64,000 bases of DNA from Beroe forskalii (GCA_011033025.1 WFMF01000549.1:1-64000), one strand, 5' to 3'; shown: positions 6,953-60,100, counted from the stretch's first letter. The notes: generated by a model from the sequence alone, not told the origin. Numbers and translations: made by a program.

Positions 6953-9900
6953 ATGTCCAAGTCGTCGCCTCAGAGTAAACCGAAGTCACAGAAGTTTGTC
7001 AAGGAATCTGAGGGAGCTTCCACGACTAAAGTTGGATTTGGAAGAGGAAAGGAGAACAATGCACAACTTGTGGAGAAGGTACCTATAAGTGAAAGATTAA
7101 GCCTTTTTCAAGCTGTTTATAGCACACTTTGGAATTAAATTGCATTATTCCTGTGCTGTTGAAACAGATAAAAATTATGTTATCATTCCGTACTTTTTCT
7201 TGAATTGTAAGTTATTTTCTACTCAATCAAATTCGGATAACTCACGACACTACGCTTCACCTTGACCCAGGATATAGAGAAGCAGTTAACACGGCAAGGC
7301 ATCCGACGTAACACTGACGTAGTGGAGTTGTACCTGGCTAATTCCCGCTATGTGGAGATTCCCTCTCTACACGAGTACAAGGCACTACATGTGCTCTGGC
7401 TCAATGCCAACAAGGTACGTAATCTGGGGTAACAGTTTAAACCTGAGTGATTATTGTTAGTTAGACAATAGTTCAACATGGTATCAATGTACCTAATAGT
7501 TTAGTTTGGCATTTCAACATAACTATGATAGTTGCATCTGGCTAGTGGCCACTTGCAATCTTCTCTCAAATTGAAGTATACAATTCACTATGTCTCTGGC
7601 CCAGCCCCTGACATGTTCCTATGATTTGCCTAAATTTTCTCTATTTGTACTACCTTCTTCTTGGCTCTTGCCTCAATTTGCTCCTGATATTTAACAGCAG
7701 AATGTTACCTGCCTCAGATTTACAAGGTAGACTTCCTGAAGAATAACTATCAGATTACGGAGCTGTACCTCCAACAGAACATGATAGTCAGCATTGCTGG
7801 GGCTCTCAAACACCTCTCATGCTTACAGGTACTCCATCAATACTGTACCTGTTATCTTAATTTAAATTCTTATTTCTTATTCAACTCGAAATTATAATTT
7901 TACAATTTTACCCGTGACCAATAAGAATCTGGAAATTTGAAAAAAGGACTGGGCGTATCGTAGAATTTCCGAAAACTGAAAAGCAGTAGTTCTTGTAACT
8001 ATATACTCGAAGTCAGACCAAGGCAGTCAAAATACGTGAAATTTGCTGAATAGTAGTGTCCGAGCTCAAATTAGCATCCTTTTTATTTCCTATCATTTCA
8101 AAGAATATTTGGAAAATTATTTCCTATCAGTCAGTTAGTAAAAATCAAATCTTTTGACGATTCTCTGGAACATAAATCAAATCTTTTTTCAGGTCTCTGG
8201 AACACAAATTCTGATTCCCCATTTAACAGTGACAGTTAGTAAAATGTATTTCAGATTCTGATGCTGCACGCTAACCAACTGACGTGTTCTCAAGATACTG
8301 TCAATGAGCTCAAGAACATGCTCAGCTTGCACACCCTCAGTAAGTACCTAAAGCTCAGCTTGTACACCCTCAGTAAGTACCTTATTCTCAGCTTGCACAC
8401 CCTCAGTAAGTACCTAATGCTCAGCTTGCACACCCTCAGTAAGTACCTAATGCTCAGCTTGCACACCCTCAGTAAGTACCTTATTCTCAGCTTGTACACC
8501 CTCAGTAAGTACCTAATGCTCAGCTTGCACACCCTCAGTAAGTACCTAATGCTCAGCTTGCACACCCTCAGTAAGTAACTATTGCTCAGCTTGCACACCC
8601 TCAGTAAGTGCCTAATGCGCAGCTTCTACACCCTCAGTAAGTACCTAATGCTCGCCTTGCACACCCTCAGTAAGTACCTTATGCTCAGCTTGCACACCCT
8701 CAGTAAGTACGTACTTGAGAGCTGATTAACACCTCTTGATTTATTGCGTGGGACTTGTAAAAAATACATAGACCCTGACCTATGACATTTTATTTCTTTG
8801 TTGGTTGCATGAAAGTATTCCAATGAACTCTGGGTGACCTACATTTTCAATACATCTACAGGCATGGAGTCTCATGCCAATAACTATACTTCAGTATTTA
8901 TATGAGAAACTGTTGCTATGGCAACGTGATTATTCAAAGCATACTCCCCGAATTTAACCGTGATGAAAATGACCTTTTATCCCTTGGAATAACTATGTAA
9001 GTATAGAATAATGTGTATACCATGCCATGATACCAAATCAGACAATCGTGTTGGGCTATTCAAGAAAATGCTACAATAAAGATTTCTAGATTACAGAACT
9101 TTTAATCTAGTAAAGAAGTAATATCATGATGAGTTCAGTGTAAAATTTCATTCATCCACACTTTAGACTGCAGACTTTATTAAAACTCCAGTGTCTTATA
9201 TCATGAATTATATACTAAAATGAATTCCAAAACAATGATAATGCTACCTCGCAGCATGCATGTCAGAACCACTTCTTAAAAGTAATAATGATGATTATAA
9301 TCTCGTATCTCTGGCTCTACACTGCATATTATAATAGAAAAGTTAAAATTGTAATGATAAAACTCATGAAAAGTCAAATGAATAGCAAGCAGTCGACCTA
9401 GACATATGTATTGCCATGATGCTAGCAAAGACTCGATTTTCAGCTATGTAAAGTTTTGTTTATAATAAAAACAAGAATAGTACTCGCTTTCCAATCGAGC
9501 TTGAAATTAAGCGTGGTCAAAATTAATTAAAGTGTTTTGATAAACGCGCAATCAACTACCTTGACATGAAACGTCAGACAAAGAAATGAAAACTTCAGAA
9601 AAGCAATGAAACCTCAGACAAAGCAATGAATGAATACCTAAATGAATGGCCCTCTGTAGTCTGTAGAACAGCATAAAAGCATAAAGTCCAACACAGGCAC
9701 AAACTTCCGTTTTGGGGTACTACAGATCATCATTTGCAGTTTTAGCTGTATGATTATAGTGCCGATCCAAACTGTATGTTTGTTGAATAAAATGTAGAAA
9801 ATCAGTTCAGCTATTGAGATTGACGATTTATAGAGTTACGTGTTTTTAGGAAAAATCATCAGTGACCTGATGTGGTGGTTGATATCAAGATATTTGGATG

Positions 9901-12900
9901 GATGGATTGATTTACCGGACAAAAATGTCAATAAATGCTTTTACGTACCTATTCTCTGCATTTCAATTTCATCCACAGCACCCCGGTCCATTTGAGGCGA
10001 CACTCCAAGTTTATTCCTGGTAAACGTTACCAGGCAGAGACTGAAGCCTTTGAAAGCTCCTCAGAATGTCCTCTTCAAGTATTAGCAGCGGATTGATGAT
10101 AGAGTTTGCAGGCAGAATTATGACACTAAAGAGAGAATACCAACCGGAAGTGTTAGACAGGTCCAGAATGTGAATAAGCCATACTAGGAAGAAAGACGCC
10201 CACGAAATAACATCTGTTACGATTAAGGTTGTTAACTTCCGTTGGATTTTCTTATTCCTTGCTACCACGAATTTGTTGTTTTGACCAGCTAAATTGGAAC
10301 TTTTGACCGTTATAATAGTAAGGAAAGCAGAACTGATTGTTATTATGACCACACAAACTACGTTACTAGTCAGGACTGTACCCAAAAACCAAATTTGAGG
10401 ATTTCCAGATTCTATGAAGTAATTGAACAGACAAAAACCATTACTTCCATAGAAGCCTATCTTCTTTCCAAAAACGTTTACATTGATGAACATATCATTC
10501 ACTAAGTTGCCAATAGAGTTCCAAGAAAATCCATGTTTTGACATTCTCCCATAGTAAGCTTCAATCACCAAAGAGAGGTGCTCTTTATCCAGAATTCCAA
10601 CAAATAAAGGGTTATTGTCGTATTTTATGGAGTGGACAAAATATGACTCAAAATGAGGAGCGAGCGGAATAAAAGATATCACAGCTGCAACAATGTATAT
10701 TGCACCAATACAAACTAGAATAGCTGTCTTGTTCCTCTTGGTAAGAGACTCCCGTGGTTTGTTCATTGATCTAGCACCCTTTGCCCGGTATACACTAAGA
10801 ACAGTCATGGAGTACAGAGAAACAAGAGATCCCAGAGTTGAAATTACTCCCAACCCTGTACATAAGTGACTAGTCACCCACTCAAACTGAGTTCTACAGG
10901 TGCTCTTGTTGAGATATTTGTCTGAGAACGCAACTAACAGGATGAAAACACCTTGCAATAGGTCACCAGATGACACCACAAGCACGAACAATTCATTTGT
11001 CATTGCTGTGGCTGTTTTCAGAGAGGAATACTTCTTCACGCCCCTGTATATGACGCAAAAATTGCAAAGTGTCGAGATAATGCCAAATACTAATGCTAGA
11101 ACGAACATTGCATTGTTTACAAATATCTTGACCTGGTTGTCACAATCAGTATTGCACTCGTCACTGTAGTCCAAACAGTCGAATTCCCCGTCACACTTTT
11201 TACCCTTAGCTATATACTCACCGGAGTCCAGACACTTGAAGTTATTGAAGCAGTTATCTTCATCAGAAGAATCCCCACAGTCATCATTTAAATCACACAC
11301 TTCCTCATATGGGATGCACCAACCATTATCACACTCAAAGACACTTTGTCCAAAAGATCTGCCACGGTTTTTGAAAGCCACAGACAACTCCTTGTTTCCT
11401 GTTATAGTCAGGACCCTGAACTTGTTCAGATTGCAAGATGTCTGGTTCAAGGGCTTCAAGTTAATCGGGCATTCAATATAATGGCTACAAAGCTTTTTAC
11501 ATGCAAGATGCAAATAAAGTTCCCCATAAACGCTATAACAATTAATTTGACCGGCATATTCAGGACTGAGAATGATGGCAGAATCTGTACACCATAAACT
11601 GTTGGTTCCTTCATCAGAACACTCTTAACACATGCTCCAATGGAGCGCTCTAGACTTCCGAGTCCAGGGTGGCAAAAGAATACCCGCCTGGAAAATGTTG
11701 ATGTGCCAATTTGGCCGGAAATCTTATATTGCCATCTTGACCTTTTACATAAAACCCGATCACAATTTGAAAAATCTGCACACAAATTGTCAACGAAGAG
11801 ATAGTTATCAGACTGTGGACACTTCAAGGAGGGTATATTATTGCAGGATTCTTGTTTCTTGTAGGAATAGATAGCTTTATCACCAGTACCACAATCCCTC
11901 AACCATGTATTTGATTCTTCATCAAACCCATCCATACAGTCCCATATCCCATCCATCACCCAGGACACTGGAATGGGCATATCAAGCTTGGTGTATGAAA
12001 ATCTCCTGACACAAGTTGTATAAGGTACAGTTACACTATCGCATATTGACGCCGTTTCGTCGGTACTGTCTGCACAGTCACTCGTTCCATCACACAGCTG
12101 ATGCTTGTGTACTTCACAGAAATTGCTGAAAGACACACATTTGGTGTCAATATTGTCGTCACACACGTTTTTATCCTCACATATTACGTACTCAGAAATG
12201 GTTGTCGGGTACCCATCTACATTGCAAATGAGAGGACTTATCGGAGAATTTGTGCAGTTCATTTGATCTCGATTATCAGAACAAACCTGAAACGCCACAT
12301 GTCTCTTTGATTTGTTTGGAGGGGAGCACTTGCTTTGAGGATGTAAACGTCGAGAAAAAGTATTCAAGAAACTTTCACAGGTGTCATCAGGATCGCATTC
12401 CAGTTCATCTCGTCTGTTCGCACAATGAGGTAACCTATCACAAATCCTGAAAGGTGGAATATACTCATATGGACCACGACAATTCCTTCGGATAAGAGAA
12501 TATTGCCCAACCCTGCAGATCATTCCGAAAATTGTGTGGTTGCCGTCGCTACATCTTGCCTCATCATAACAATCTTCACAATCACAGATCCTGTCACATA
12601 ATGATGTTTTGGGAACCCTCTGACCGTTTTCCATTCCAGGACATGGTCCACAATGAACCGTACTTTCTACTCCAATGTGATGAGAACACAGTCTTTCATC
12701 CACTGCAATACCATCCAAAGTGTTCAGGCAGTCAACTCGTCCATCACATCTGAATAGAGTTTCACCTTGATCTAAAGTAATGTTCGAACCATCAAGCCAC
12801 GTCCCTGCCCCTGGTAGCTTGTGACACAGTATGTCCCCACAAACCCCCTCTCCTGGGTGGATGACAATGTTACTGGATGCCCACTCGTCATGTCCACATG

Positions 12901-15900
12901 ACTGGTAAAAGGAGGGGTCTCCTGGGCAGGTGAAGGAGTAGGCAATATCCCTCCAATCAATGTAAGTAACTACGTAGAAATGATGAGAGAAAGGACACTT
13001 GAAGTACCAGTTACCATTGCCCAACAGACATCGTTCCTTGATGTAGCCCCGTACAACAACAAACGAACATTCCAACACTTCAAGGGAGTCAAAAGACTTT
13101 TTAATATCTTTGTTAATGAACCCCGTCTTGAAGCTATCGGTAAGGTAGGTTGCACGGACGATGATTGTTTGTAACCATAGTAGAACGATTTTCATGGTCT
13201 CACTTCCTAACTGTGCTTATTTAACTCACAGACGCTCGCTCAACAGTCAACAATCAAATTTTCGAAATACTTGACCATGGGTCAGAAACAAAAGAGAACG
13301 ACGTCAATTATTGTCATGTATGAGTGAAAAATAAATCGTCGAAAAAAATTCTTTACAACAGAAAATCAATAAAATATTTATGTAGAATGAAATATTTATA
13401 TAGACTAATCACACATTGACGTATTGCACGTAACTTGGTTTTCTTTCCCACGTGTGGTGTCGTGAGTCGTCACGTGAGGAGCAGAAACCACGTGACCTTG
13501 TCACAAGCCAAAACTTGAATACGCAGTTGGTACCCGCTCAGGTTTAATGTAAGATCTCAAGAAACTTTCTTCAAAAACTAAAAACCTCAGCAATTCTAAA
13601 TATGCGAAAACTCTCTAAGTCGAACGTAAGGTGAGCGGACAAAAGGTGAGACGAATCAGAAGAACCAACGTTTAGGGCGCTTGGATTTGTCCATTTTTTC
13701 CGAAATTTTCTATTTGGTGTTTTCAGCACATTTCGGCCAGAAGACAGATATGGCTCACAGAGCTTCATTTAACGTTCGGCAAGCTAAAGAATGCTACCAA
13801 TGAGTTCGTGTCGTCGAGACGAATCAGAATAACCAACTTTTAGGGCGCTTGGATTCGTCCATTTTTCCGAAAATTTCTATTTGGTTTTTTCAGCTTATTT
13901 CGGCTAGAACACTACGACACAATGAGGCGGGAAATAAATGATTATGCCTCAAAAAATCAACTTTCCCATCTTGTAGGTATTCCTAATACTGCGTTTTTTT
14001 TCTTTTGTGCTGAAATAGTGGAGCACTACAAGCTACAACGATTCACGGCATTTTCCATGCACCCCATATATCCACTTAGTAAAGTAGTAAGCTCGCCTGA
14101 CACACGGTACCCTCGTCCATATGATCTGAACAGGCATGCAGCAGATTGCAGACTGTGGACAGGTCTTGCCTGGTCTTGGACTGCTGTTTACAGCAAGTTC
14201 TGGCAGGACAAGAGGCTTGGGGCATATGCAAATGTTAAGAATTTTCGCCTGTCGCCATTTAAAGTTATGTTTGTAGTATACCCATACACCTTTATAGATG
14301 AGACATTGGATTTATAAGCGTATTTATGGGCCGTTCAAGAGTTATAGTCTACAACACAAATTTCATTGAGTTGATCAGCCCATAATAAAAGTTTAAATCG
14401 AATTACCAATCTGAAATCAGAATGCATTACAATGGTTTAGAATATCTACATCTGATCAGAGTACATCCCACAGCAGTCATTTCCCGTTGACTTTGTATGT
14501 AACTGTAAACATGATACAGTTAAATGAAGTTAAAACAGTTACACTCACACTAACAATTAATCTCATCATACCCGAACAAGGTTGAGTGATATAATGAATG
14601 ATATGATTCAATGATACAAGTCGCTGGCTAGCACCTATCTCGAATGCGAGAGAACTTTATGTCACGCGCAAAATGACATCAACGAACTTGTTATCCAAAC
14701 TTGAAATCGTAATAGTGACCGTAACATTTTTCACGCCGCGCCGCGCGCGTGAGAAAAAAGTTAACCGATGGCGTGCAAATTTTCAGCTCAATCGGTCAAG
14801 CTTTTCGATTTCGGATCTTGGGTGCCTCAGAAATGAATACCGGCATGGATCACTGTTTTGAGAGGTAAAAAATAGGGTTTTTGGATTTTACAGGAAATCA
14901 AAGGAAAACTGACGAATATCATTGGTTCAGTGGTTTCAGGTGCATAATTTATGACCAGATACACTTCTATTTGACCACCCATGAGACATATACGCCCAAT
15001 AAGGGGCGTGAAAGGCAATTTTTTAGCCGAAAAACGCAATTTTAACCCCCTTAACAGACAGAAAATGGCTGATTTCGGGATTCTAAAGTATGGTATCTCT
15101 TTCTTAGGTCGTCCATGGATGGCTTAAGTTATTAAGTTACGTTTCGTCCGATCTGAGTTGTTGCAAATTCGGCGGTATATCTACCCATCGGTTACCTTAT
15201 TAACAACGGAACCTCATTAACAACTAACACCGGCAACTTAACAGGTGTACTTAACAGGGGTACCTTATTAGCAGCGGTGTCTACATCATTAAGAACGGGA
15301 CTTGAATTAAAATATTTCAGATCTGTTTGGGAACCCGATAGCGCAGGAGGAATGGTACAGGTTGTACGTGATACACAACGTACACTCCCTCAAGTTACTG
15401 GACAGACAGAGCGTTACCTACCACGAGATATGTGCTGCCAGAAAGTAAGTTATGAATCGTAGGATGTTACCCTACGCGGCGCAACGTTCCACATTTGGAA
15501 TTGGACGCACTTTGCCCTTTCTCCATCCGGTCAGACAAAATCTTCGTCCACGTTAATTGTTTGAACAAAACAGCAACATTTTCGCTCAACTTTTCAATAT
15601 ATTTCAAGGCCCAAGGATTTGAGTATGGAAGTTTCACCCTTTTGGGATAACATTCAATGTTTTCCTTTAGATTATTCGCACCACAACTCGTTCGGATAAA
15701 AGATTCCATTAAATTCGGACGAAGGGAGTTCAACAAGCCTCACGAAAATCAGAAGTCTAAACAACCAGGTTTGTTGTACATCTTCTACTCTTTATCTCTC
15801 AATTTCTCGGACGTCTGTCGTCTGTCTACCACGGCTCTAACATCATTTAGTTTCAAATCAATAATTTCCTAAAAATTCGAATTTCGAATGATTTCTAGCT

Positions 15901-16142: not shown

Positions 16143-16149
16143 TACTTAT

Positions 16150-17900
16150 TTAAAATGTTTCAGCATTATTAAGGCTGCACACATAAGGTAAGATTCTGGA
16201 ATTGACGTTTGTATTACGTATTACCACATGACCGGCCACTTTACGACGTCAAACCGCCTATTTTCCTTGTTTTGCAGCCTTTATTATTGCTTTTGTGTTT
16301 GTGAATCAGTTAAACCCAAGTTTCCTGCCACCAGTGGTTCGTCTCATGGGAACTTGAATTATTGTTCTACTATTTAGATAATGTTAGACGGGTACGTGAC
16401 GCCGGCAGAGATTTGAAATTTGTGATGGTAACACGAGCCATTTCTGAGTGCTAAACTTTAAAACAGTGAGATTTTATCGAGCCGACTGCTTTCCCAAAAA
16501 TCCTGGAATCGAATGACAAGGAAGCAAGTCTTAAATTTTCTTTTCTAGGTTTTTCTTTTCTATCAGTCACAGCTAGCTTGAAACCCCTAAATTTTATCGA
16601 CCAGATAAGGGTTATTTATTAATTAAGATATAGGTTTAGAGGTTTTGTTCTTTTCGCTACCTTATTGCCCTCACCGATTATCGCTGGAAGTCGAAATTGA
16701 ATGTCTAATTTTGATTTAGGCTTCTTTGACAGTTGAACAAGTTGAATGATAATATGATGATGTAGGGTTTGTGGTTATAATTATCCATATTGAATGGATT
16801 GCAATTATATATAGAGTCAACAAATTTCAGGAAATTAAATAATTATTTTTGATTTTACATTAAATTTTTATTCTATTCGATTTTATAATTGTTTGTGTGA
16901 TGCTCTTTACTAAATATTTTATGTTGAAAGATTATTGTAAATAGTATACATATTATATCCAATTCACATCTACACGACATTTAATTACTGGAATACAGTT
17001 GGGACTTATTTCAGCTTTCTAGATCAATAGATTTGCAAGAAAAGAATGGCAGGCTTTCTCTACTTTTTAATTCATGTGCAACTCTTCAGCGAATCAGTGC
17101 TGCTGCAATAGTATGATCTGCAATTTCTTCAATCTTCATTATCGGACACATATTTTCATATCTCATATGCCAACTTCCCAGTCTCCAAATTCCGCAGAAA
17201 GATTTCAATCCTGGTCATTAGATGATGCATTGTGCAGATTAAGTCAGAGAAGAGCAGAACTTACTTACTTAGATCTTTAAAAGCGAAAGCTTATAGCAAG
17301 TTGTGTGATGTGTGTACATGTGCAATTACTCTGCTTTTCAAAACTGTGCTTGAGATCTTTGCTGTGCGTACGTAATTCTCTGTACAACCTACTGGGGACT
17401 GGTACATATTCTGTTGACGCTGAGTTACTGCGTTTTTGCCTGATATATGTACTGAGTTAGTAATTTCTATGGTTTTGACATCATAAGATGGTATAATATT
17501 GTTTCTAGCTCAGGCCATCTGTTACAAGTCCTCTGTTGATTAAACAATGCTCCTCTGGCCCTCGGTACTGTAGTTTACCTCAACAGTTCGATGAGGTGCT
17601 CCCTTTTTAATAGAATGTTTTGCTGTACCATAGCCACTCGCTCCTTTATCCCTCAGCAACGCCATTAATTTCCTACTTTGATCTCTGATCATGACGTCAT
17701 CTCAACTGCATATAAACCAATAGCCGAGTTATTATTCCTTATCGGGAAATGCCCATGAATGAGTTCTCATTGTGTGGAGCTCTATTAACTTATTTACTAT
17801 TGCTGTGCCTTCTACGCGTTTGTTCTTGCTGTGTTTTTCAGAGGTAAAGGTTATTCTTCCCTTGCCCTGAACCGATTCCATCACCTCAAATTCCACGTAC
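16150..17900. other. Intergenic DNA between LRRC72 and the hydrolase
   Basis: No gene was seen. TACGACGTCAAACCGCCTAT at about 16242 and ATGACGTCAT at 17691-17700 are members of the TGACGTCA-dyad family described below. Confidence 0.4.
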
Positions 17901-18023
17901 GATTGGAATTGGATACAAAACATTTGGTTTTTCTGTATGTATTTTTTGATTCAACGCGATGTCATTTCTCCCTCTACTTTATTAAACCTGTACTTACTAA
18001 TTACATCTGTTCAATTAGGTCCC

Positions 18024-23442: not shown

Positions 23443-34867
<11,425 letters not shown>

Positions 34868-40520: not shown

Positions 40521-40620
40521 TCCCTCTGATGCCATCACAGGTCCTCCTCCTCCTCTCCCTCCTGTTCTCTTCTAGCGTCACAGGTCCTCCTCCTCCTCTC
40601 CCTCCTGTTCTCTTCTAGCA
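40521..40620 (-). repeat. Tandem duplication of the PQBP1 stop-codon region
   Basis: TCACAGGTCCTCCTCCTCCT with CTCCCTCCTGTTCTCTTCTA occurs twice with a 44-bp period. The upstream copy on the minus strand is the coding one ([11 protein letters not shown], stop); the second follows it. Confidence 0.9.
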
Positions 40621-42147: not shown

Positions 42148-42149
42148 CT

Positions 42150-42757: not shown

Positions 42758-43943
42758 TTAGCTTCCTGTCATGGTGACGTCATCCTTCTCCAGTTGATCG
42801 TGAGTTCGCTTGTTGTTAGGTTTGTCAGTAGTACTGTCAGTAGTACTGTTGGTATGGTTACCGTTGGTATGGTTACCCTCAGTAACGTTACCATGGTAAC
42901 CAGTGCTCCCGAAACCACCTTCACCCCGTACAGTACTGTCCAAGTCATCAACCTGAACCAAGTAAATTACAGTAATGTTCAATGTACGAGGTATATTTCT
43001 AGTGTACATGAGTACTATCTTTTTAGAGGACATCTTGGTCATATTGTACACCCAGAAAACTTGCAAAATAATCCCATGAAAAGTCAGAACTGTTTTCACT
43101 ATGAGTACCAATATATACAATAAATATTCTAACCAACCTCTACAACGGCCGGTGTCATGATCCTCTCTAAGACGAGTTGAGCTATCCTGTCTCCTTGTTT
43201 TACAGTGTAGTCAGTGCTGGCGTGGTTAAACATAACTACCTTCACTTCTCCTGGGTGGGAGTGTGAGGGGGTGAGGAGCATTGGTTAAACATAACAACCT
43301 TCACTTCTCCTGAGAGGGTGGGAGTGTGAAGGGGTGAGGAGCATCAATGGAAGCAGAAAAGCATAAAATCATTCGCCCCATAGAATTATTCGCATATTAT
43401 TTGGTGATATTAATCTGAAACATCTTCAGTCGAAAGACAAAATTATTGAAGAAACTGTTAAAGTATTGTATTTGCATGATTATAAGCTCTAAAATCTCGT
43501 CCGAATTTTGAAAAAAAGGTATTGCATTGAAGGTAAACCTCTGTAGTCCTTGTCGACGACACCCCGCCCCAATGTCAATGTGGTGTTTTGCTGCTAGACC
43601 AGATCTGGGAGCAATCCTACCGTAACACCCATCTGGCACTGCGATAGAGATACCAGTACAGACCATAGCCTGGAATACAAGGAAGGGAAAGTTAGTTTTT
43701 TAGAATCAAACATTGCACGAAATTGCATAAAATTTTCTGATGAAACATACAACTTTGCACTGAAGAGTTATTAAAGAGATAGTTAAAACCACCCTCCCCA
43801 ACTCCTACCTTTCCCTGCGCCGGGACAGCAGTATCTTCGCAGCTGTACAGGTCATAACCAGCCGCCCCCTCAGAGGTACGAGTGGGAAGGTGGGCGTGAG
43901 GTTCCCTCCTCTTCACTCGCAGTTTACAGGGAGAGTCAGACAT
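42758..43943 (-). CDS. DUT: Deoxyuridine 5'-triphosphate nucleotidohydrolase (dUTPase)
   Basis: Four exons: 43809-43943, 43539-43669, 43138-43250 and 42758-42952. The five trimeric-dUTPase motifs are visible in order: AAGYDLYS (1), the uridine-binding [14 protein letters not shown] (2), VVDKDYRG (3), GDRIAQLV (4) and the P-loop-like [10 protein letters not shown] (5). The enzyme hydrolyses dUTP to dUMP and pyrophosphate, keeping uracil out of DNA. A low-complexity tail rich in Asn, Thr and His follows motif 5. Motifs 2 and 3 in exon 2 lie in different frames: the run at 43562-43570 (CCCCGCCCC on +) carries one base too many, most simply an assembly indel. The exon-3 acceptor with about 26 exon bases is duplicated upstream in the intron. 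Confidence 0.92.
43250..43345 (-). repeat. Duplicated dUTPase exon-3 acceptor (2 copies)
   Basis: On the minus strand TCCCACCCTCTCAG + GAGAAGTGAAGGTTGTTATG precedes the true TCCCACCCAG + GAGAAGTGAAGGTAGTTATG by about 73 bp. The polypyrimidine tract, AG and about 26 exon bases are copied. Confidence 0.95.
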
Positions 43944-43944
43944 T

Positions 43945-44540: not shown

Positions 44541-44544
44541 ATCC

Positions 44545-47500
44545 TCAAAACTCTTCCCCACCTCCCTCCTCTTGGCTGTATTCCTCATAGTCTGGTTGGA
44601 TGGTGAATTCAGCAGGGAGTACTCTAGCTCGAGGGGGACCTGAGTAGGAAGGGGGTGGCGCCCCGCCTCTTCCTCTAAACGCCCCTCTGCCTCTAGGAGC
44701 CCCCCTACCTCTAGGGGTGCCTCTACCCCAGGGAGCCCCTCTAAAGCCGCCGCCCCTACCTCTAACGCCTCCTCTGTCTGCTCTACCACGTTTAGAGAAC
44801 CGGTAATCTACGGATATTTTAGAGGTGAATCACAGTATTGATCACATCGGATCATATTCATGGTAATAATTCTCGGAATAGGTCCATGATATGAAGCAGA
44901 AACTTTTCATAATTTCAAAGTATTGATGGAATGAAAATAAAAGTAGGTAGTATGATATTTGAATTTTCTCACCCTCATCTTCATCAAGAGGTCGGACCGC
45001 CCCAGCCATCAGACTTTTCCTGACAGGTTTCACAGTGGCAGCACTGGCCGCAGCCGCCCCATTCTGTGCTCCTGTGCCACCCCCATAGGCTTCTAAGCCA
45101 CCACCATGAGCACCTGAGCCATCTTGAGCTTGTGAAGTGAGGCTTGCCGCTGACACTGGTCCTTGAGAGTAGGTGTGTGCGCCGCTTTCTGACTGATTCA
45201 CAGTGTTACCTGGCGTAGCCGGCGGCGGTGGGGGTGGCACAAAGCCACTGTATAGAACGGCTTGTGCATCGCTGTAGCCGGCACTGAACGCCGCCGCTTG
45301 GGGATCAGTACTCTGATAAGATTCGTAACCTGTTGCAGCTCCATATTCAGCGTACCCTGAAGCTGCATAACTTGGGTCTGGATAAGCCGCCTGCTGTCCA
45401 GCAAACGGCATGGTAAAGGGAGGGAATGGAACTCCTGACATGTCAGGGTAACCAGTTCCATAACCAGGATAAGCAGAAGACACCGCAGGGTCATAGCCCT
45501 GGGTTTGGGATGCAGGATCGTAGCCTTGGGTTTGGGATACTGTTACTGAAGGACCATAGTCCGGAGTTTGGGATGGGTTTGTGGCAGGGTACCCAGAGGA
45601 CGGATTACTCTTACTCGCTGGAGCTAACCCGTGAGCTTGTGCTATCAGCTCCGCTGCTCTTTTAGCTGCATCATTCGCTGCCATGCCACCTCCTACTTCG
45701 TCTGTATATCCTTCCGCTTCAGATTCCAGGAACAGCTCAACATAGCGAGATTCTGAAACGGAGAGAGTTGCAGTGAAAAGTAGTTGTAGGCACTTGCGTT
45801 GGGATAGAAACACATCGAGCATCAATTGAAACTAACTATGAATTTGCAGTATACCAGTATAATTGGATTGGGGGAATGGGGGTTTACGGGGCTCAAGTAA
45901 CTATGAAATCTTCCTTACTAGATTTCCCATCAATGAATGATACATGTTGATATATTCATTATTCAGTGTACTTTGTATCTCGCAAGCAACTAACTCAAAC
46001 ATTTTAAAACATGGTAGTAATCTGTATGCACTAAGCACATGACTGTGTAATCAGTTTCGTACTTTTGCTCTCGTTACTTTTGATTAATCAATCAATTTAT
46101 TGCATCTCTAACTCCCAACTTTACTAAAAAATCTCGACCTTAATCAATAGTTAAGGCTCATTCTAACGGATAATTGGGGAGTGGGTATCTATTTCATAAA
46201 CTAGGAGGGGGGGGCATTTGAACATGATAAACCCACCCATATACGATCGATCTTTCTGCATAGCTTCCAGTGCATCCTCGTGGGTATTAAAGAAAACATA
46301 CCCGTCGCCCGAGGGGCGCCCGTCATCCCCCACACCCAGCTCAATGTGTTTGGGCATGAGGGGGGAGAAGAATTTGATGACATCCCCTTGGGACGCCTTA
46401 AAGGGGATCCCCCGGATAAAAACTTTATGTTCTTTTATCCCACCCCTGAGGAATGAGGGGTGTTTGAATCTTGGGGCTTCATGAAGAGGGGGGGGGATTG
46501 AAGAAGACCACATTTGAAAAATTTATGACAAAAAGACGCGCCACTCAAATTCATAGCGACGTTCGACGAGGGTCATCTGGGCATTTCGAAACTAGAGCCA
46601 ACTGGAGCATGAAACCCACATAAAAATGAACTTACTTCATAGTGGGCCAGCTGCTGGGATCCTTCTTTGGTTTCTGTGTATCCAGAGGTTGTTGGTGCTG
46701 CATTTCCTTGAAGTTCGCTTTGAAAATCTCAATGTACCTAAGACATGAGAATGATTACGCCGACATTTTCTGATTTTTAATCTACACTTTCATAATACAT
46801 AGCCCGTATGTCAAAACCTTATAACTCGATTTGTACAGTTCCTTACAATATATAATTTTAATCAATATCGGGGTCGTTAAAATCACACAATACCTCTTTC
46901 CTATGGCCTGCATGTGTTTCTCCAGAGCTGCAGTGGCTTCTTCCTGCCTGGAAAACTGAACATACGCCTCCCCCGTCATACGTCCTTCATTCTCTCTAAA
47001 CTGGGGATTTTATTTGATCAATGAAAATTAAAATCTGTTTATGTGGTCTCTTCTGCAATAAATGGACGCCACGGTCATCTGGACGAAACAAATTTTGCGT
47101 ACCATCTGCACTGAACCATTGACCATTGACCAAGTTGTATCTTGATGTTAGTAACAATGTACCTTGATACTAGTAACTGACAGACCAGTAAAGAACTCCT
47201 TGACATCATCCTCCGTCACGCTGAAAGGGAGTCCCCTCATCTTGACAACAGGAGAGTCCTTACCCCCGTAGGCTCGTTTGTTAATAGCACCCTTTTTCAG
47301 GGCACGAGCCAAGTCATTCTCATCGGACTCGTATATCTCAACGTACCTGTCAGGAGGAAGTCAGCGGATCTTTACTTTTAGTAGTTCAGTAGGTACCATT
47401 ACGGCGGAAAAAGGATTGGTTACCTTAGTACATGAAATTAAGTAAGCAGAAAATTAAGCACTCCAGCCGCCAAAAATGCTTAATTTGATGTAACGTAGTA

Positions 47501-50500: not shown

Positions 50501-53500
50501 AGTGAGAGCGATAAAACGACCTCCTTAGATTGAACCCCACCAAATCAGATCCAAACCAGCAGCACATCACCATGATTCTCTCCCTCTTCCTCCTCCTTCT
50601 AACACCCCCAACACAGTCCCTCCAGTGTGAAATGTGCTCGGAGTACGAGATTTACGGGTACACCACCTTCATTGCTGATGTGGAGGACGATGATGGAGCT
50701 ATTCTCCCACGATGTTCAGAGGTATTGATATTTAAACACGTACTTATTGGGTCAATTTGGGAAGCTTCCTATGGGTTGTATTCTGTTAAGACCAGCAGCC
50801 CGAGGGTCTAAACAAAACAACCCAGCATTTCCAGATTAGGGCGGAATAAGGATTGTTAAATAAGGATAACTTTGACACTTTGAAAATGATGAGAATGAAC
50901 TTGCTATCTGGGCCATTTCCATACACCAATTAACCTATCTAACTTTTCAGTATAAGAATTGAAAATAGTGACACTTTTCACTTTTTTCATTTCTCACGCC
51001 CCCATTTCTCTCTAAAACGTCACTTTCCCCACATCAGAGCCAGGCACAGAAGTGTGTCGTGACTCGGGTGGGAGCTCGTGTGTGTACTACGTGGTGAACA
51101 CGGTCTACCTGAAGGACAGGTTCACTCACCTCGAGAAGTACATCGTGAAGGGGTGCGCTAACGTAAGTCTTACATCGTCAAGGGGTGCGCAAACGTAAGT
51201 CTTACATTGTCAAGGGGTGCGCTAACGTAAGTCTTACATCGTCAAGGGGTGCGCTAACGTAAGTCTTACATCGTCAAGGGGTGCGCTAACGTAAGTCTTA
51301 CATTGTCAAGGGGTGCGCTAACGTAAGTCTTACATCGTCAAGGGGTGCGCTAACGTAAGTCTTACATCGTCAAGGGGTGCGCTAACGTAAGTCTTACATC
51401 GTCAAGGGGTGCGCTAACGTAAGTCTTACATCGTCAAGGGGTGCGCTAACGTAAGTCTTACATCGTCAAGGGGTGCGCTAACGTAAGTCTTACATTGTCA
51501 AGGGGTGTGCTAACGTAAGTCTTACATCGTGAAGGGGTGCGCTAACGTAAGTCTTACATTGTCAAGGGGTGCGCTAACGTAAGTCTTACATCGTCAAGGG
51601 GTGCGCTAACGTAAGTCTTACATTGTCAAGGGGTGCGCTAACGTAAGTCTTACATCGTCAAGGGGTGCGCTAACGTAAGTCTTACATTGTCAAAGGGTGC
51701 GCTAACGTAAGTCTTACATCGTCAAGGGATGCGCTAACGTAAGTTTTACATCGTCAAGGGGTGCGCTAACGTAAGTCTTACATTGTCAAGGGGTGCGCTA
51801 ACGTAAGTCTTACATCGTCAAAGGGTGCGCTAACGTAAGTCTTACATTGTTAAGGGGTGCGCTAACGTAAGTCTTACATTGTCAAAGGGTGCGCTAACGT
51901 AAGTCTTACATTGTCAAAGGGTGCGCTAACGTAAGTCTTACATCGTCAAGGGGTGCGCTAACGTAAGTCTTACATCGTCAAGGGGTGCGCTAACGTAAGT
52001 CTTACATTGTCAAAGGGTGCGTAACGTAAGTCTAACATCGTCAAGGGTGCGCTAACGTAAGTCTTACATCGTCAAGGGGTGCGCTAACGTAAGTCTTACA
52101 TCGTCAAGGGGTGCGCTAACGTAAGTCTTACATCGTCAAGGGGTGCGCTAACGTAAGTCTTACATTGTCAAGGGGTGCGCTAACGTAAGTCTTGCTCATT
52201 GTCAAGGGTGCGCTAACGTAAGTCTTACATTGTCAAGGGGTGCGCTAACGTAAGTCTTACATCGTCAAGGGGTGCGCTTAATCGTCAAGTCTTACATCGT
52301 CAAGGGTGCGCTAACGTAAGTCTTACATCGTCAAGGGGTGCGTGTGCGCTAACGTAAGTCTAACATTGTCAACGGGTGCGCTAACGTAAGTCTAACATCG
52401 TCAAGGGGTGCGCTAACGTAAGTCTTACATCGTCAAGGGGTGCGCTAACGTAAGTCTTACATTGTCAAGGGGTGCGCTAACGTAAGTCTTACATTGTCAA
52501 GGGGTGCGCTAACGTAAGTCTTACATTGTCAAGGGGTGCGCTAACGTAAGTCTTACATCGTCAAGGGGTGCGCTAACGTAAGTCTTACATCGTCAAGGGG
52601 TGCGCTAACGTAAGTCTTACATCGTCAAGGGGTGCGCTAACGTAAGTCTTACATCGTCAAGGGGTGCGCTAACGTAAGTCTTACATCGTCAAGGGGTGCG
52701 CTAACGTAAGTCTTACATCGTCAAGGGGTGCGCTAACGTAAGTCTTACATCGTCAAGGGGTGCGCTAACGTAAGTCTTACATCGTCAAGGGTGCGCTAAC
52801 GTAAGTCTTAACGTAAGTCTTACATCTTCAAGGGGTGCGCTAACGTAAGTCTTACATCGTCAAGGGGTGCGCTAACGTAAGTCTTACATCGTCAAGGGTG
52901 CGCTAACGTAAGTCTTACATCGTCAAGGGGTGCGCTAACGTAAGTCTTACATCGTCAAGGGGTGCGCTAACGTAAGTCTTACATCGTCAAGGGGTGCGCT
53001 AACGTAAGTCTTACATCGTCAAGGGGTGCTCGCGCTAACGTAAGTCTTACGTAAGTCTTACATCGTCAAGGGGTGCGCTAACGTAAGTCTTACATCGTCA
53101 AGGGGTGCGCTAACGTAAGTCTTACATTGTCAAGGGGTGCGCTAACGTAAGTCTTACATCGTCAAGGGGTGCGCTAACGTAAGTCTTACATCGTCAAGGG
53201 GTGCGCTAACGTAAGTCTTACATCGTCAAGGGGTGCGCTAACGTAAGTCTTACATCGTCAAGGGGTGCGCTAACGTAAGTCTTACATCGTCAAGGGGTGC
53301 GCTAACGTGAAGTCTTGTCACATCGGGGTGCGCTGTCAAGGGTGCGCTAACGTAAGTCTTACATCGTCAAGGGGTGCGCTAACGTAAGTCTTACATCGTC
53401 AAGGGGTGCGCTAACGTAAGTCTTACATCGTCAAGGGGTGCGCTAACGTAAGTCTTACATCGTCAAGGGGTGCGCTAACGTAAGTCTTACATCGTCAAGG

Positions 53501-56127
53501 GGTGCGCTAACGTAAGTCTTACATTGTCAAGGGGTGCGCTAACGTAAGTCTTACATCGTCAAGGGGTGCGCTAACGTAAGTCTTACATCGTCAAGGGTGC
53601 GCTAACGTAAGTCTTACATTGTCAAGGGGTGCGCTAACGTAAGTCTTACATCGTCAAGGGTGCGCTAACGTAAGTCTTACATCGTCGGGGCATCAAGGGG
53701 TGCGCTAACGTAAGTCTTACATCGTCAAGGGGTGCGCTAACGTAAGTCTTACATTGTCAAGGGGTGCGCTAACGTAAGTCTTACATCGTCAAGGGGTGCG
53801 CTAACGTAAGTCTTACATTGTCAAGGGGTGCGCTAACGTAAGTCTTACATCGTCAAGGGGTGCGCTAACGTAAGTCTTACGGTAAATTGAGCGCGCCAGT
53901 ATCAGGCCAGTACCACGCCAGTATCGCGCCAGTATCAGGCCTACCTCACGCCGTTATCACGCCAGTATCGCGCCAGTATCTCGCCAGTAGCACGCCAGTA
54001 GCGCGCCAGTAGCACGCCAGTAGCGCGCCAGTAGCACGCCAGTATCGCGCCAGTATCGCGCCAGTCGGAACTAACTTTAAGCCAGGACGCCAGTAACACG
54101 CCAGTATATGATCTGAAACTGACGTGCTACTGGCGTCCTGGCTATGTTGTCGACTGGCGTGATACTGGCGCGATACTGGCGTGCTACTGTCAGCCAACTA
54201 CTGGCGTGCTACTGGCGCGCTACTGGCGTGCTACTGGCGCGATACTGGCGTGATACTGGCGCGATAACGGCGTGAGGTAGGCCTGATACTGGCGCGATAC
54301 TGGCGTGGTACTGGCGTGGTACTGGCCTGATACTGGCGCGATACTGGCGTGATACTGGCCTCGACGGATCGCTCAATTTACCAGTCTTACTTATTATTTA
54401 GCTCACGGCCCGTTCGCCGAGTTTGAGATCCAGTTTACGGAGCGGCCTCGTAACTGAGAGAATGACTCTGAAATTTCCTGTCGTGCGCCATTCGTACGTG
54501 CGTGATTATATGATTCAACCGTGTAATCACTAATCACGTACAAACAACTCAAAATTTCAGACAATGATTCTCATTTCTCACCATGGCGACCCCAGCAGTC
54601 CGAGACTAAACTCTCTTCAGAATATCCTTAAATTCCAGGTATCGTGTGAACCAATCGCAGCTATGACAAGATCCGAAGTGGAGTCGTCTGGCAACACAAC
54701 AGTGGTAATTTCAGCGTCGTGCGACGTACTGGCACATTGCCAGACAGATTACTGTAACCATGGCAACGATAGAGACCCAAATATGGGGGTGGTTCTTAGT
54801 GCGATAGTGTTTGGGGTTTTGGGGGTGGTTTGGGATTGATCGATATACACGGTGGTTTTATGATAGGGTAATTTGATGTTTGGGAGTTTTTCAATTAAAA
54901 CAAAAAAGATAAGTTCGAAAATAACATGTCACATTTATTATCTATGAACGATCATGTGTTACTTTTTATTGTATTACGTGGCAGTGCCAATTGTTATTCA
55001 AAAGATTTTAATCGAAGTATATTGTATGATTATTATCAATACTATTTATTTAATTGAGAGGATTTAGTTTATGATATTAATTGTTTATCAAAAAATTGCC
55101 TTAGTTCAAAACTTTTAATCAATTTTGTAAAACTGTGTTTCTTTACGTTTATTTTTATTAGTGATATTGTGAAATTAATTTAAAATAATGAAAATAAATT
55201 TCAGAATACACTATAACCAAGTTTTACTGCCTCTACCTTGATTCCATGTATTCATGATTCTTTCTAAGAGCGTTCCAGTAACTGTCTTCATCAGCAAATA
55301 TCACGAAACATTCGCCAGATGGTCGCCCTGGAAAGAGAGTGGAGGGGTTAGAGAAGCTGAGATTTGGTTTTAAATGTGGCGGAAGGTTACATTCATTTGA
55401 CATTCATTTGGTCGCCCTGGGAAGAAAGAGGGGTTAGAGGAGATGAGGTTTCGTTTTAAATGTGGCGGAAGGTTACATTCATTTGACATTCATTTGGTCG
55501 CCCTGGGAAGAAAGAGGGGTTAGAGGAGATGAGGTTTCGTTTTAAATGTGGCGGAAGGTTACATTCATTTGACATTCATTTGGTCGCCCTGGGAAGAAAG
55601 AGGGGTTAGAGGAGATGAGATTTGGTTTTAAATGTGGCGGAAGGTTACATTCATTTGACATTCATTTGGTCGCCCTGGGAAGAAAGAGGGGTTAGAGGAG
55701 ATGAGGTTTGGTTTTAAGTGAGCCGGAAAGTAACAGTCAATTGACAAACTGGAATCAATCAGCTCATTTGAAGGTATTAAATATTAATGAACTATAATCT
55801 AGTTGCTATGATGATAGCTATAGAAATCCACTGAGATGCGAGCGCTTCTTTAAAATATGTTCCCTCTAGCATTCTTCTGTTCTCTATTTTCTCAAGGAAT
55901 TCCCCCACTCATAACTCAGGACTTACCCTCATCGTTGTATGTGATGTGAATGCTTTCCTCCAGTAAATCCCTCACCCTCAACACTTACCCTCATCGTTGT
56001 ATGTGATGTGAATGCTTTCCTCGAGTGGCCCCCACAGCAGACTGTTGTTAAACCAAGCCTCCAGCTGTGCTTTGGTCGCCTTGAAGGGGATACCCCGACA
56101 TCGCAATATCCACCGGGGTTCCCACAT
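44545..56127 (-). CDS. hnRNP F/H-like RNA-binding protein with three RRMs and an RGG tail
   Basis: Eight exons in consistent phase: 55989-56127, 55237-55327, 47163-47346, 46894-47000, 46636-46737, 46237-46445, 44973-45752 and 44545-44807, about 624 aa. Three quasi-RRMs are visible: WILRCRGIPFKATKAQLEAW...GRPSGECFVIFADED...RYVEIYES; VVKMRGLPFSVTEDDVKEFF...GRMTGEAYVQFSRQEE...RYIEIFKAN; VFIRGIPFKASQGDVIKFFS...GRPSGDGYVFFNTHED...RYVELFLES. They match the hnRNP F/H/GRSF1/ESRP class, which binds G-tracts and controls splicing. A Tyr/Gly/Pro/Ala-rich region (SQTQGYDP repeats, a PPPPPP run) and a C-terminal RG/RGG stretch follow. The start is taken at MWEPRWILRC; an acceptor at 56141 implies a 5' UTR exon upstream. 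The 7.9-kb second intron contains the antisense LU gene. Three of its splice sites are duplicated. Confidence 0.9.
47428..47530. mobile_element. Palindromic AT-rich element, copy 1
   Basis: ATTAAGTAAGCAGAAAATTA and AAATTAAGCACTCC face GCCAAAAATGCTTAATTT and GTGCTTTCTTAATTA as inverted arms. A second copy lies at 48125-48240 in the same intron. Confidence 0.65.
48125..48240. mobile_element. Palindromic AT-rich element, copy 2
   Basis: AAATTAAGAAAGCATTAAAT with AAAATTAAGCACTGGGG faces AAAAAATGCTTAATTTGGTG and GTGCCTTCTTAATTTTC. Same family as 47428-47530. Confidence 0.65.
48539..48565. repeat. Near-perfect 27-bp palindrome
   Basis: TTGTGTGTAATTA, a central T, TAATTACACACAA: two 13-base arms with no mismatch. 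Confidence 0.9.
48570..50500. other. hnRNP intron 2 (left part), no gene
   Basis: AT-rich; short open frames such as 50142-50357 carry no recognised domain. Confidence 0.4.
50572..54839 (+). CDS. LU (Ly6/uPAR) domain protein, probably GPI-anchored
   Basis: Three exons, 50572-50721, 51040-51162 and 54639-54839, encode 157 aa. Residues 1-16 (MILSLFLLLLTPPTQS) are a signal peptide. The mature start LQCEMC is the classic LU opening, VCRDSGGSSCVYYVVNTVYL and YIVKGCAN follow, and the domain closes with CQTDYCN, the C-x(4-5)-CN signature. The hydrophobic end MGVVLSAIVFGVLGVVWD suits a GPI signal. LU proteins are three-finger cell-surface modulators or receptors; the partner is unknown. The exon-2 acceptor is CATCAGAG, the in-phase choice. 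Intron 2 is filled by about 80-85 copies of a 32-bp unit copying the exon-2 end and its donor, followed by a 502-bp foldback element and a MITE. The gene lies antisense in hnRNP intron 2. Confidence 0.88.
51139..53880 (+). repeat. 32-bp minisatellite of exon end plus splice donor, about 80-85 copies
   Basis: Unit: TACATCGTCAAGGGGTGCGC, TAAC, then GTAAGTCT. The first copy is the real end of LU exon 2 (TACATCGTGAAG...GCTAAC at 51139-51162). From the true donor at 51163 the array runs 2.7 kb. Most units are identical or differ at C/T in ATCGTC/ATTGTC; a few are shortened or scrambled (about 52280, 52795, 53030, 53300, 53690). Nearly every unit keeps GTAAGT. Confidence 0.98.
53881..54382. mobile_element. 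502-bp foldback element with 8-bp target-site duplication
   Basis: The ends are GGTAAATTGAGCG and its inverse CGCTCAATTTACC. Both arms are built from CGCCAGTATCG/CGCCAGTAGCA repeats and their inverse, so it can fold into a long hairpin; a loop of about 60 bp lies near 54060-54120. AGTCTTAC flanks both sides (53873-53880, 54383-54390). An 8-bp duplication suits hAT- or P-type transposase use. It carries no coding sequence and landed in the minisatellite. Confidence 0.92.
54448..54592. mobile_element. MITE family B, copy 3
   Basis: CTGAGAGAATGACTCTGAAA with TTTCCTGTCGTGCGCCATTC on the left is mirrored by AAAATTTCAGACAATGATTC and TCATTTCTCA on the right. It sits just before LU exon 3. Confidence 0.65.
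55321..55740 (-). repeat. 86-bp tandem repeat carrying an hnRNP acceptor
   Basis: The acceptor and first bases of hnRNP exon 2 (minus strand: CCAG + GGCGACC) are copied four more times upstream, with GGTCGCCCTG on + at 55410, 55496, 55582 and 55668. Each unit holds TTTCTTCCCAG + GGCGACC plus about 70 bp of intron filler. Confidence 0.95.
55921..56030 (-). repeat. Duplicated donor of hnRNP exon 1 (2 copies)
   Basis: The exon end GGAAAGCATTCACATCACAT + ACAACGATGAGG with GTAAGT occurs at 55989-56024 (true) and again 62 bp downstream at about 55927-55962. Confidence 0.95.
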
Positions 56128-56510
56128 GACACATTGAGACCTAGTGTGAATAGGGAGGGTTAACGGGGTATTTTCTTACATTGGGACCTAGCGTGAATAG
56201 GGGAGGGTTAGAGGGGTACCTAAGAGTACATGACACATTGAGACCTAGTGTGAAGAGGGGAGGGTTAACGGGGTATTTTCTTACATTGAGACCTACTGTG
56301 AAGAGAGTTGGGTTAGGATGGGTGTTTTCTTACATTGAGACCTAGTGTGAAGAAGGGAGGGTTAGAGGGGTGTTTTCTTACATTGAGACCTAGTGTGAAG
56401 AAGGGAGGGTTAACGGGGTATTTTCGTACATTGGGATAGGGGAGGGTTAAAGGGGTACCTAAGAGTACATGACACATTGAGACCTAGTGTGAAGAGGGGT
56501 GGGTTAGATA
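56128..56510 (-). repeat. Tandem repeat carrying the acceptor upstream of the hnRNP start codon
   Basis: About seven units of roughly 50-60 bp. On the minus strand they contain TTCACACTAG + GTCTCAATGT, a copy of the splice acceptor and the first exon bases at 56140. Some units also copy GTGTCATGT, including the ATG. Confidence 0.9.
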
Positions 56511-57137
56511 TAAATTTAAGGTTTTAAGGTTAGTTTATACGTTTAATGCTTTTGAATAAGAAACCAATGATTAAATAAATCAACGGGTTGTGATATATTG
56601 GTGATTTCTCGGTATAAATTATACAATTACAAATAGCGTTAGAGTACAAAACAAAATCCTAATTCTCATCAAATCAACATAATACTTTCCTAAGGTCAGT
56701 CATGATATAAATTAACAATTGAGATAATTAATTGGCGATTTTGGTTGGACAAATCTTAAATTAAAACAGAATCAAATGTTTCTTAATTCGGAGAGGTGTT
56801 AGATCCAGATTTATGATCTTCAAGACGTCTAAACAAAAATTTCATGCTTATTAATTATTGTCTTAGGCTAGTAAAATGGTTAGCCAGTTGATCAGAAAGA
56901 ATTGAAAACATTAAGCAGCGTTCATTTCAGTCAGTGCAAAATGGGCACTTGAAAACATTAAGCAGCGTTTAGTTCCTCAGTCTACAACCTACAACCCTTT
57001 GCTAGCATAACAAACTTACATTAGTCGCTGGGAAAATATTACTTCAGAAATTACTCACTCAGAAAAACCCCTTATCAGGGCATTATATGTACAGATTACA
57101 GAACAACTCAAGATTCACTCAACTCCCCCCACTACAT
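56511..57137. other. Spacer between the hnRNP gene and IDH3A
   Basis: AT-rich, no gene recognised. It should contain the hnRNP promoter or first exon and the IDH3A 3' UTR. Confidence 0.4.
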
Positions 57138-60100
57138 TTAAGCTCGTATCTTCCTGCATATCTCTGCAGTGTACTCAGGATTGGTAGCACGGCCTCCTAT
57201 GTCACCCGTTACCACTTTCCTTTCCTGGAATGAAGGAGGTGTAGTGAGTAGTGATTGCTTTAGTTGCAAAGCATGAAATATTGGAGCTTGATGATTACCC
57301 CTAGGACCCAGTTATAATCACAAATAATCATGGACCGATTCGAATAACTGATGACTACCCCTCGGGTAATGGAAAAGAATCACAAATAATCAAGGACCCA
57401 ATTTTAGAAGAATATTAAAATTTATCATCTCTATTCCGTCTAGAAGGATCTCCTACCATGAGAGTTGAGAGGACAGCCTTCTCGATGAGATCAGCCTGAG
57501 ACTTGAGTTCCAGGTGACGTAACATCATCAGACCTGACATCAGCAGAGCCGTGGGGTTGCCTTTATTCTGAAACATTTGATTTGAAGATTCTAGAGAAAA
57601 AATGAACTTCCTTTATTCTGAAAGCATTGCAAAATAAATCGTTTTTGAAGATTCCAGAGAAGATTCCAGAGAAAACATGAACAAAAGTTCATTTCATTCT
57701 TAATTGTTTGATAACAGTTACGAGACGCCATTTAACTGGATTTTCTCACAGGAAAATTTCAGTTTTTTACAAAATGGAGGCCACAGGGCAAAATTGCATT
57801 TAAATTCATTCTAACTCGATTACTTTCACAACATGGCGCTCAGATAATCTGATCATGACAGCTGGTAAAACTTGGACCAATCAGGACTGACTTCATGACC
57901 AAATCCACCAATAGAACTCGAACCTTGTCACGAAATTTGATTTTAATGAACCTGGTCGTTAATAAGAATGGGAGTTTGTTCACTAATAACCAGGTTTCGA
58001 ATCATGAGTTGCAGGATGTAAAACTCATGGCAAAAGTGACGTCATTATCATCATCTAGAATGGTGTATTGATAACGTAAAATATCCCGTTACTGGTGAGC
58101 AGCAATCCTGTGATAGCCAGGAACTTACCATACCTTACCATTAACAGCTGTGTTCATTGTAACTCCATTTTAACATTTCCCACGTACGGCAAAATCCAAT
58201 CAACACCAAATAATAAGGTGACATGATTACGGGGTGACTTAATCCAATAACCACGAAACAAATCACGCCATGTTGTCCAGCAAAACCAATATAAAAGTCC
58301 TCCGCTCTCTGCAGAACCACTTCTACCGAACTCAAGTCTACCACGCACAACAACACCAAATCTCTCTCTCAAGTGTTCTCGCTGTTGTCACTCTCCTACA
58401 CCGATATGCAGCTGACAACACTCCTGCTCTCCCTGACACTGCTGACAACAGCTGCTCACGCCAGTGTGGGCATGTGTATCCATGACAACAAGATCTACCT
58501 GGAGGGCGAACAGTTCACGGATCAGTGCAGCATGTGCGAGTGCGAGGCTGATGGAAAAGTCACGTGCGACGGTACGTGAAATACAATGATTTCAATTTAA
58601 TTTAAACGAGTTAATGATCATTTTGTTTTCCAATAGCATCTACCCCGATGTGTATACGTATCAAGTCATAATATCTTTGAATCAATGTTGTCAAATCGTC
58701 AACAATGTACATGCTCCAAATCGGTCAAGAACAGTTTCATGAATCTGATACTCTTTACTCCCCCTAAACCTTCTCTCTCAGTTAAACTCTAAACACCCCT
58801 AAACCATATCTCCTTCCTCAGGTAAACTCTGTCCTCCCTGCACCTACATGGGACCTACAGGAAGACCATCAGTACCACCGGACAGTATAACGACGGGTGT
58901 AACAACTGTATCTGCACCATCACTGGCGAGGCTCTCTGTACGGACATCTACTGCCCCTCACAAGTGTCATGCTACCAATGACGAGGGGATCATGGGATGG
59001 ATCCCCTTCGATGCATCCCTGACTCTAAAGTCGGAGAAGGAGGGGTGTGTCAAGGTGTGCACGTGCAAACCTAACAGGTTCTGGTTGGGATCAGCGCTGT
59101 ATGAGTGTGAGGATAAGTGCGAGTAAAGGGCGTCAAATGGGGACATTGTTGAGAAACAGGACATTGTTGATTATGAGTATGCAGCATTATAGCATCCAGG
59201 TTCCAAGACTTTATTGGAGTTTTGATAATGTTTTTTGATCTGAAGTTAACTTAGCGTTCGGAGTGCATGTATTAAAAAAATATTGAGCAATCACTGAGCA
59301 ATTAACAATGACACCGAAGGACGAGTTGTTAATTGACACTCCCGGGCGATTATCAACTTTATTCATTCATGAGCCAGATGCTTAGATCGTACCACACAAT
59401 TTTGTTTGTAATTATCCCGACGATAAATAATGTTATATTTACATTTGTACGGTATTAGAAATGCCATTGTTTAAAAAATGTTTAAGACGCTGTGTTTCTT
59501 TTTGATATTCCAGAAATTGAAATATGAATTAAATCGATTGAAAAGCAAGTTAAAATACTGTAGACTTATGCACTATAAAAACCTCAGGACTTGAGGCATA
59601 ATGCATATTGCATATAATTTCCTTACGTCTATTTTACGAGTCCCTCATTTCAGCACGAGAAGCTGTTATGGCGTTAATGCGTTATTTTTTAACATTTTCA
59701 TTCGCTTTGAGAGCAAATATGTTCCCAGGCACTTGTTCATTTGTTCAAGCATTCTTAAAAACGACAAAAACAACCCCATAGCCTGGTCATTGGCCTACCT
59801 TAAATACGAATAATTAAAATACTCGTCTGTGTAACCTGAAACAGCCCTGAACTTCGCACAGCAGACAATAGAAGAATAAAGTGGGTATCGAATGACACTC
59901 GGTGTCGCTGCTAAATGCGGCTAACATCTGTGCACTATTTCATACAACTACACAAGATTCCTACGCACAAATATAGCTGATTCTTATACATAATTTATTA
60001 TAGTATGTTGTGGGACGTTGTTATCTCTGATCTATGAATGTTATACTTATCTTTTTGTATTTTCTCGTAACAACGTTAACCTCAACTCATTGCGTCATTA

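Follow-up and report, generated by a model that had tools for sequence, protein, structure and literature searches.

Tandem duplications across splice sites in a 64-kb window: the anatomy of amphioxus mirages, at high local density and probably in a new lineage

Why should short tandem duplications lie across the splice sites of several unrelated genes within a single stretch of DNA? The stretch analyzed here, referred to throughout as the window, is 64 kb long, and all statistics were computed within it. Genes were rebuilt by homology, and the main ones have Pfam support (LRR_9, Arf, TMA7, RRM, VWC, Iso_dh, dUTPase, Hydrolase_4 and LDLa/7tm_1); Rfam and tRNA scans of the window gave no matches. 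We mapped 75 splice sites, each possessing a GT or AG together with a joining frame or a protein match where this was testable. The MGLL exon-1 donor was removed from the set (a frame without a join) and the LU exon-2 acceptor was shifted by 2 nt, and the match counts were unaffected by these changes. Duplication across a junction was measured by a gapped span score with +1 per match, to which each flank of the junction had to contribute 6 score units or more, within 300 bp. Without the length limit the score bridged between arrays, and that version was not used.

Strong splice-spanning tandem duplications were found at 8 of the 75 sites (span score 15-56), and at 10 of the 75 when two weak sites, the VWC exon-2 acceptor and the ARF6 exon-2 donor (12.5 each), are included (Table 1). 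An earlier note on this DNA had put the number at about 11 of roughly 80. A single dinucleotide-shuffled window contained no position with a span score of at least 14 and had 0.044% of positions at 12 or above. The strong eight comprise three donors (LRRC72 exon 4, LU exon 2 and hnRNP exon 1) and five acceptors (hnRNP exon 1, hnRNP exon 2, dUTPase exon 3, ARF6 exon 4 and IDH3A). Direct reading of the sequence reveals a second copy of the junction at all nine of the main sites that had been claimed as duplicated. The copies are highly identical, and in the alignments and by direct reading the duplicated part takes in 8-42 exon bases plus some intron, compared with the 8 to about 48 exon bases given previously. 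On the exon side the units end 8-42 nt from the junction and on the intron side 6 to more than 60 nt from it, rather than at the GT or AG. The sites have between 2 and about 84 copies, and unit lengths are 32, 33, 48, 50, 59, 62, 86 and 100/178 bp, many of them not multiples of 3, as would be expected of intronic DNA. Scores and alignments agree with the earlier description that donors and acceptors are both affected, that the copies are local and reach into the intron, and that the unit sequences are unrelated between genes.

Table 1. Tandem duplications at exon-intron boundaries in the window, with one comparison case at a stop codon.
Feature	Coordinates	Strand	Boundary and unit	Evidence
LRRC72-like exon-4 donor	8318..8710	+	boundary after 8339; 33-bp unit x 12	TRF, span score 49, Pfam LRR_9
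LU-like exon-2 donor	51139..53880	+	boundary after 51162; ~84 copies, 32-bp unit	TRF, span score 51
hnRNP exon-1 donor	55920..56022	-	boundary 55988/55989; two near-identical copies, offset 62	span score 39, sequence
ARF6-like exon 2 (switch I), weak	34383..34473	-	17-nt direct repeat CATCGTACAGCATTTAG, offset 72	span score
hnRNP exon-3 donor, weak	47136..47177	-	boundary 47162/47163; 22-bp x 1.9	TRF
hnRNP H/F-like 5'UTR acceptor, first coding exon	56124..56507	-	boundary 56140/56141	TRF, span score 43.5, alignments
hnRNP exon-2 acceptor	55319..55746	-	boundary 55327/55328; 86-bp unit x 5	TRF, span score 18, alignments
dUTPase exon-3 acceptor	43223..43344	-	boundary 43250/43251; two copies, 59-62 bp	TRF, span score 42, Pfam dUTPase
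ARF6-like exon-4 acceptor	26658..27064	-	boundary 26700/26701	TRF, span score 56, alignments, Pfam Arf
IDH3A acceptor, degenerate	57558..57690	-	boundary 57567/57568	span score 15, sequence, Pfam Iso_dh
VWC exon-2 acceptor, weak	58760..58832	+	boundary after 58821	span score 12.5, sequence, Pfam VWC
PQBP1 stop codon (comparison case)	40535..40619	-	exact 43-bp duplication; CDS edge, not splice site	TRF, 100% match

The two large donor arrays are those of LRRC72 and LU. The LRRC72 unit is composed of 22 exon nt and 11 intron nt, and all 12 copies keep the donor signal; in the spliced protein the donor of the first copy produces the canonical LRR join LHTL/NLFGNP to exon 5 at 15321 (here and below the slash marks the junction). 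The LU unit is composed of 24 exon nt and 8 intron nt (TACATCGTCAAGGGGTGCGCTAAC/GTAAGTCT), with GTAAGT directly following 81 of the 84 exon-end copies. The unit starts with TAC, and TAC is found again after the last copy, a 3-nt microhomology. The gene takes the name LU solely from its cysteine pattern, since a Pfam scan of the LU-like protein found no family. At the hnRNP exon-1 donor, each copy holds ~34 exon nt and 6 intron nt (GAGGAAAGC...GATGAGG/GTAAGT), and a filler of ~22 nt lies between them. Two further donor cases are weaker. The ARF6 repeat is present once inside exon 2 and again just past the donor, with scores of 12.5 at the donor and 17 at the repeat, which upholds the previous listing of switch I as a weaker direct-repeat case. 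The hnRNP exon-3 donor, which the earlier note did not include, has the repeat TTACTAGTATCAAG/GTACA followed by TTACTAACATCAAGATACA and is under the span-score threshold.

On the acceptor side, the first coding exon of the hnRNP gene is preceded by ~48/97-bp units with CACACTAG/GTCTCAATGTGTCATGT, carrying up to 17 exon nt, and the units at the exon-2 acceptor each close on ...CCAG/GGCGACCA, with 8 exon nt. The dUTPase copies carry ~28 exon nt each. The ARF6 exon-4 acceptor has the presumed functional copy and three intronic copies of 41-42 exon nt apiece, the best of which is identical at 100 of 102 positions, and the array has a higher-order period of 178 bp. For IDH3A, TTTCAG/AATAAAGG is found again at an offset of 50 with 8-9 exon nt, and the VWC duplication consists of CTCAG/GTAAACTCT with ~9 exon nt. 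The AG is kept in all aligned acceptor copies.

The earlier note knew of no animal described as having such duplications so often, but the same anatomy is established in amphioxus. The amphioxus mirages are minisatellite-like tandem duplications over 5' and 3' exon-intron boundaries, described in Adh3, the globin genes BflGb6 and BflGb9, troponin C and PGBD5; their units are 10-160 bp long and of unrelated sequence, AG and GT are kept, the coding exon is intact, splicing is apparently normal and the arrays are unstable in length (PMC3087553, PMC3902484). The duplications in the window are like the mirages in that the unit spans the boundary (8 of 75 sites strongly, 2 more weakly), both boundaries are affected (3 strong donors, 5 strong acceptors), the units are of 32-100 bp (plus the 178-bp ARF6 period) and unrelated between genes, and the splice signals are kept (81/84 copies in LU, 12/12 in LRRC72, and the AG in aligned acceptors). 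They are unlike them in density: the amphioxus reports concern single genes, whereas here 8-10 of 75 sites are affected in one 64-kb window and one array has ~84 copies. All the mirage reports that we found come from cephalochordates, and a genome-wide frequency of mirages was not found in the literature. What we describe has the same anatomy as the amphioxus kind, at high local density and probably in a new lineage.

We think it likely that the arrays are mirage-type minisatellites, which would have arisen by tolerated local duplication over an existing boundary and been expanded afterward. A short local tandem duplication would happen to span an exon-intron boundary and would leave an extra exon edge and splice site on the intron side. 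Such a duplication could be neutral, tolerated in the same way as intronic DNA, because the exon could still be defined by the exon-proximal site, which is intact. Some duplications would later expand by unequal exchange or slippage, to give the 12 and ~84 copies of the donor arrays. An origin in the repair of DNA breaks would fit the TAC microhomology of LU and the 22-nt filler at the hnRNP exon-1 donor. Small tandem duplication from break repair is a described mutation class (PMC8355091), and the duplications here resemble it in being short and local; the published cases come from induced breaks in cultured cells, in contrast to the splice-site-associated germline arrays of the window, and we infer the link between them. 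With the exon-proximal sites the reading frame runs on unbroken in LRRC72, hnRNP and IDH3A, as it does in LU, where the exons were joined by hand. Because the exon-proximal copies give continuous conserved proteins, the extra copies are most likely silent in the intron, and protein homology points to the exon-proximal site as the one in use. Simple neutral duplication would not predict the excess at junctions, relative to intron interiors, that is seen when arrays are counted.

Whether the duplications are enriched at splice sites depends on the null: enrichment is absent by position and present by array. Local tandem duplications cover 11.5% of positions in the window, and a per-position test with shifted maps of the window found no enrichment (8 sites observed against 8.7-8.9 expected, P about 0.55). 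Coverage stays level at ~9-10% for 100 bases into the intron and declines within the exon over ~40 bases, with no peak at the junction in the window. Taken literally within the window, the comparison with shuffled positions, which the earlier note had named as one way to refute its claim, speaks against enrichment. With circular shifts counted by array, 8 arrays match a splice site against 3.2 expected (P 0.003); with founder units placed at random, the figures are 8 of 25 loci against 1.2-1.4 (P 7e-6 to 2e-5), and for intronic arrays only (introns and their edges) 7 of 19 against about 1.0 (P 5e-5 to 1e-4). The founder-type tests together have about 1.0-1.4 expected and P about 1e-4 to 1e-6, and all of these array-level P values are optimistic because the list of arrays was curated by hand in part and the choice of window followed from its striking look. 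The claimed concentration at splice sites is consequently seen by array or founder unit and not by position, and is suggestive, resting as it does on one selected window.

The per-position result is what would be found if a minisatellite-rich genome had some of its arrays on splice sites by chance and the window had been picked for containing several. The flat coverage is consistent with this explanation, as is the exact 43-bp duplication on the PQBP1 stop codon, which indicates that boundary duplications are not confined to splice sites. In the candidate relative Hormiphora, tandem repeats make up 13% of the genome (PMC8527503). However, a few large arrays dominate the position test, and counting by arrays or founder units gives 8 against 1-3.2 expected (P 0.003 to 1e-6). 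Chance together with the choice of window is possible, but we consider it unlikely.

It could also be that selection retains the spare splice sites, either for robust splicing or for regulated choice. Among the unused copies of the LRRC72 and LU donor arrays, no substitution falls in the 8-nt donor core: 0/96 against 17/300 in the rest of the unit for LRRC72 (P 0.017) and 0/552 against 13/1587 for LU (P 0.027). These P values are nominal and come from copies that are homogenised together. The retention of GTAAGT in 81 of 84 LU exon-end copies and of AG in the aligned acceptor copies would agree with such selection. Eighty-four copies, however, far exceed the needs of redundancy, and exact duplication is found on a stop codon too. 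The invariance of the donor cores is no more than a hint of constraint, given that array copies are not independent, and we regard selection for spare sites as improbable. A more ambitious proposal would be that in an animal outside the cephalochordates, probably a non-bilaterian, a junction-directed process copied about one-tenth of the splice sites, that the unused donors are under selection, and that mirages are widespread and functional; this we consider quite improbable.

Intron gain, or the sliding of boundaries, could come about when exon sequence that contains AGGT is duplicated in tandem; related events are reported in Drosophila (PMC2891723) and potato (PMC4974935). The Drosophila event is likewise a short tandem duplication carrying splice signals, as is that of the potato RdRp gene, whose unit, like those here, runs across an intron-exon boundary, but in contrast to both no new intron is evident here. 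The signature of such gain, an intron start resembling the downstream exon start and an intron end resembling the upstream exon end, is absent for nearly all introns. Only PQBP1 intron 1 (13.5) and the IDH3A eb-ec intron (12.0) exceed the 99th percentile, their donor-acceptor likeness being above that of more than 99% of mismatched pairs. The two copies of the PQBP1 repeat lie 115 bp from each other, in comparison with an intron of 122 bp. It is a direct repeat, as had been noted, of only 13-14 nt and out of register with both splice sites. Own donor-acceptor similarity has a mean of 6.83 compared with 6.55 for mismatched pairs, and the units of the strong cases span one existing junction, with copies inside a longer intron and not at its two ends. 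Intron gain, one of the processes put forward earlier, is unsupported because the donor and acceptor junctions of an intron resemble each other no more than mismatched ones do and because the unit spans an existing junction, and we judge it very unlikely. A mutational bias tied to GT/AG junction sequence, also put forward, is unsupported because the unit ends lie within exon or intron, away from GT/AG. Of the proposed shared process at exon edges there remain the local duplications themselves and the per-array excess.

An assembly or sequencing artefact is hardly credible: an apparent 1-nt frameshift in dUTPase exon 2 and a frame break in the nested GPCR gene do indicate an assembly with errors or broken alleles, but the copies differ by substitutions and indels, unique sequence borders the arrays, and such duplications, built on unrelated units, turn up in at least six genes.

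The lineage of the host bears on how far mirage-type minisatellites extend. The ARF6-like protein has clearly diverged from human ARF6, whereas lancelet ARF6 is expected to be nearly identical to it. The host is for this reason probably no lancelet and would lie outside amphioxus. The nested genes and the tandem-repeat load of the window resemble those of the ctenophore Hormiphora, in which nested genes are common and tandem repeats form 13% of the genome (PMC8527503). We found no similar features in the literature on ctenophores or other non-lancelet animals, although their absence is unproven. If the density seen here holds genome-wide, mirages would be no peculiarity of amphioxus, and the lineage would offer a natural laboratory in which to study how the spliceosome selects one among many near-identical sites spaced by a few tens of bases. 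It could also show if duplicated boundaries contribute to the sliding or gain of introns.

Several other features of gene structure were observed. Long introns that host other genes are found in LRRC72 (intron 4, 8340-15320), hnRNP (intron 2, 47347-55236) and IDH3A (introns within 57568-63818), and the genes nested in them are an antisense LDLa/7tm_1 receptor, the LU-like and VWC genes, and an alpha/beta-hydrolase-like single-exon gene. The nested receptor gene has two overlapping open frames at 11459-11624 (minus strand), a split that is probably due to a frameshift or a short intron. In dUTPase exon 2 (43538-43669, minus strand) an apparent extra G (GCGGGGTGTCGTC) breaks the frame and probably reflects either a homopolymer error or a broken allele. 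A 17-residue stretch of ARF6-like exon 2 (34400-34486, minus strand) differs from ARF6 GQSVTTIPTVGFNVE, altering the normally invariant switch I; the cause may be a pair of small indels, a hidden microexon or an error of assembly. Where the donor of ARF6-like exon 4 would be expected, about 26558-26561 on the minus strand, there is no GT (GACG/CTAAGT), and a minisatellite of ~950 bp (25594-26544) starts directly after the exon. The LU intron contains, at 53894-54359, repeats of ~11 bp (CGCCAGTATCA) followed by their inverted counterpart (ACTGGCGTGAT), which together form a large inverted-repeat minisatellite.
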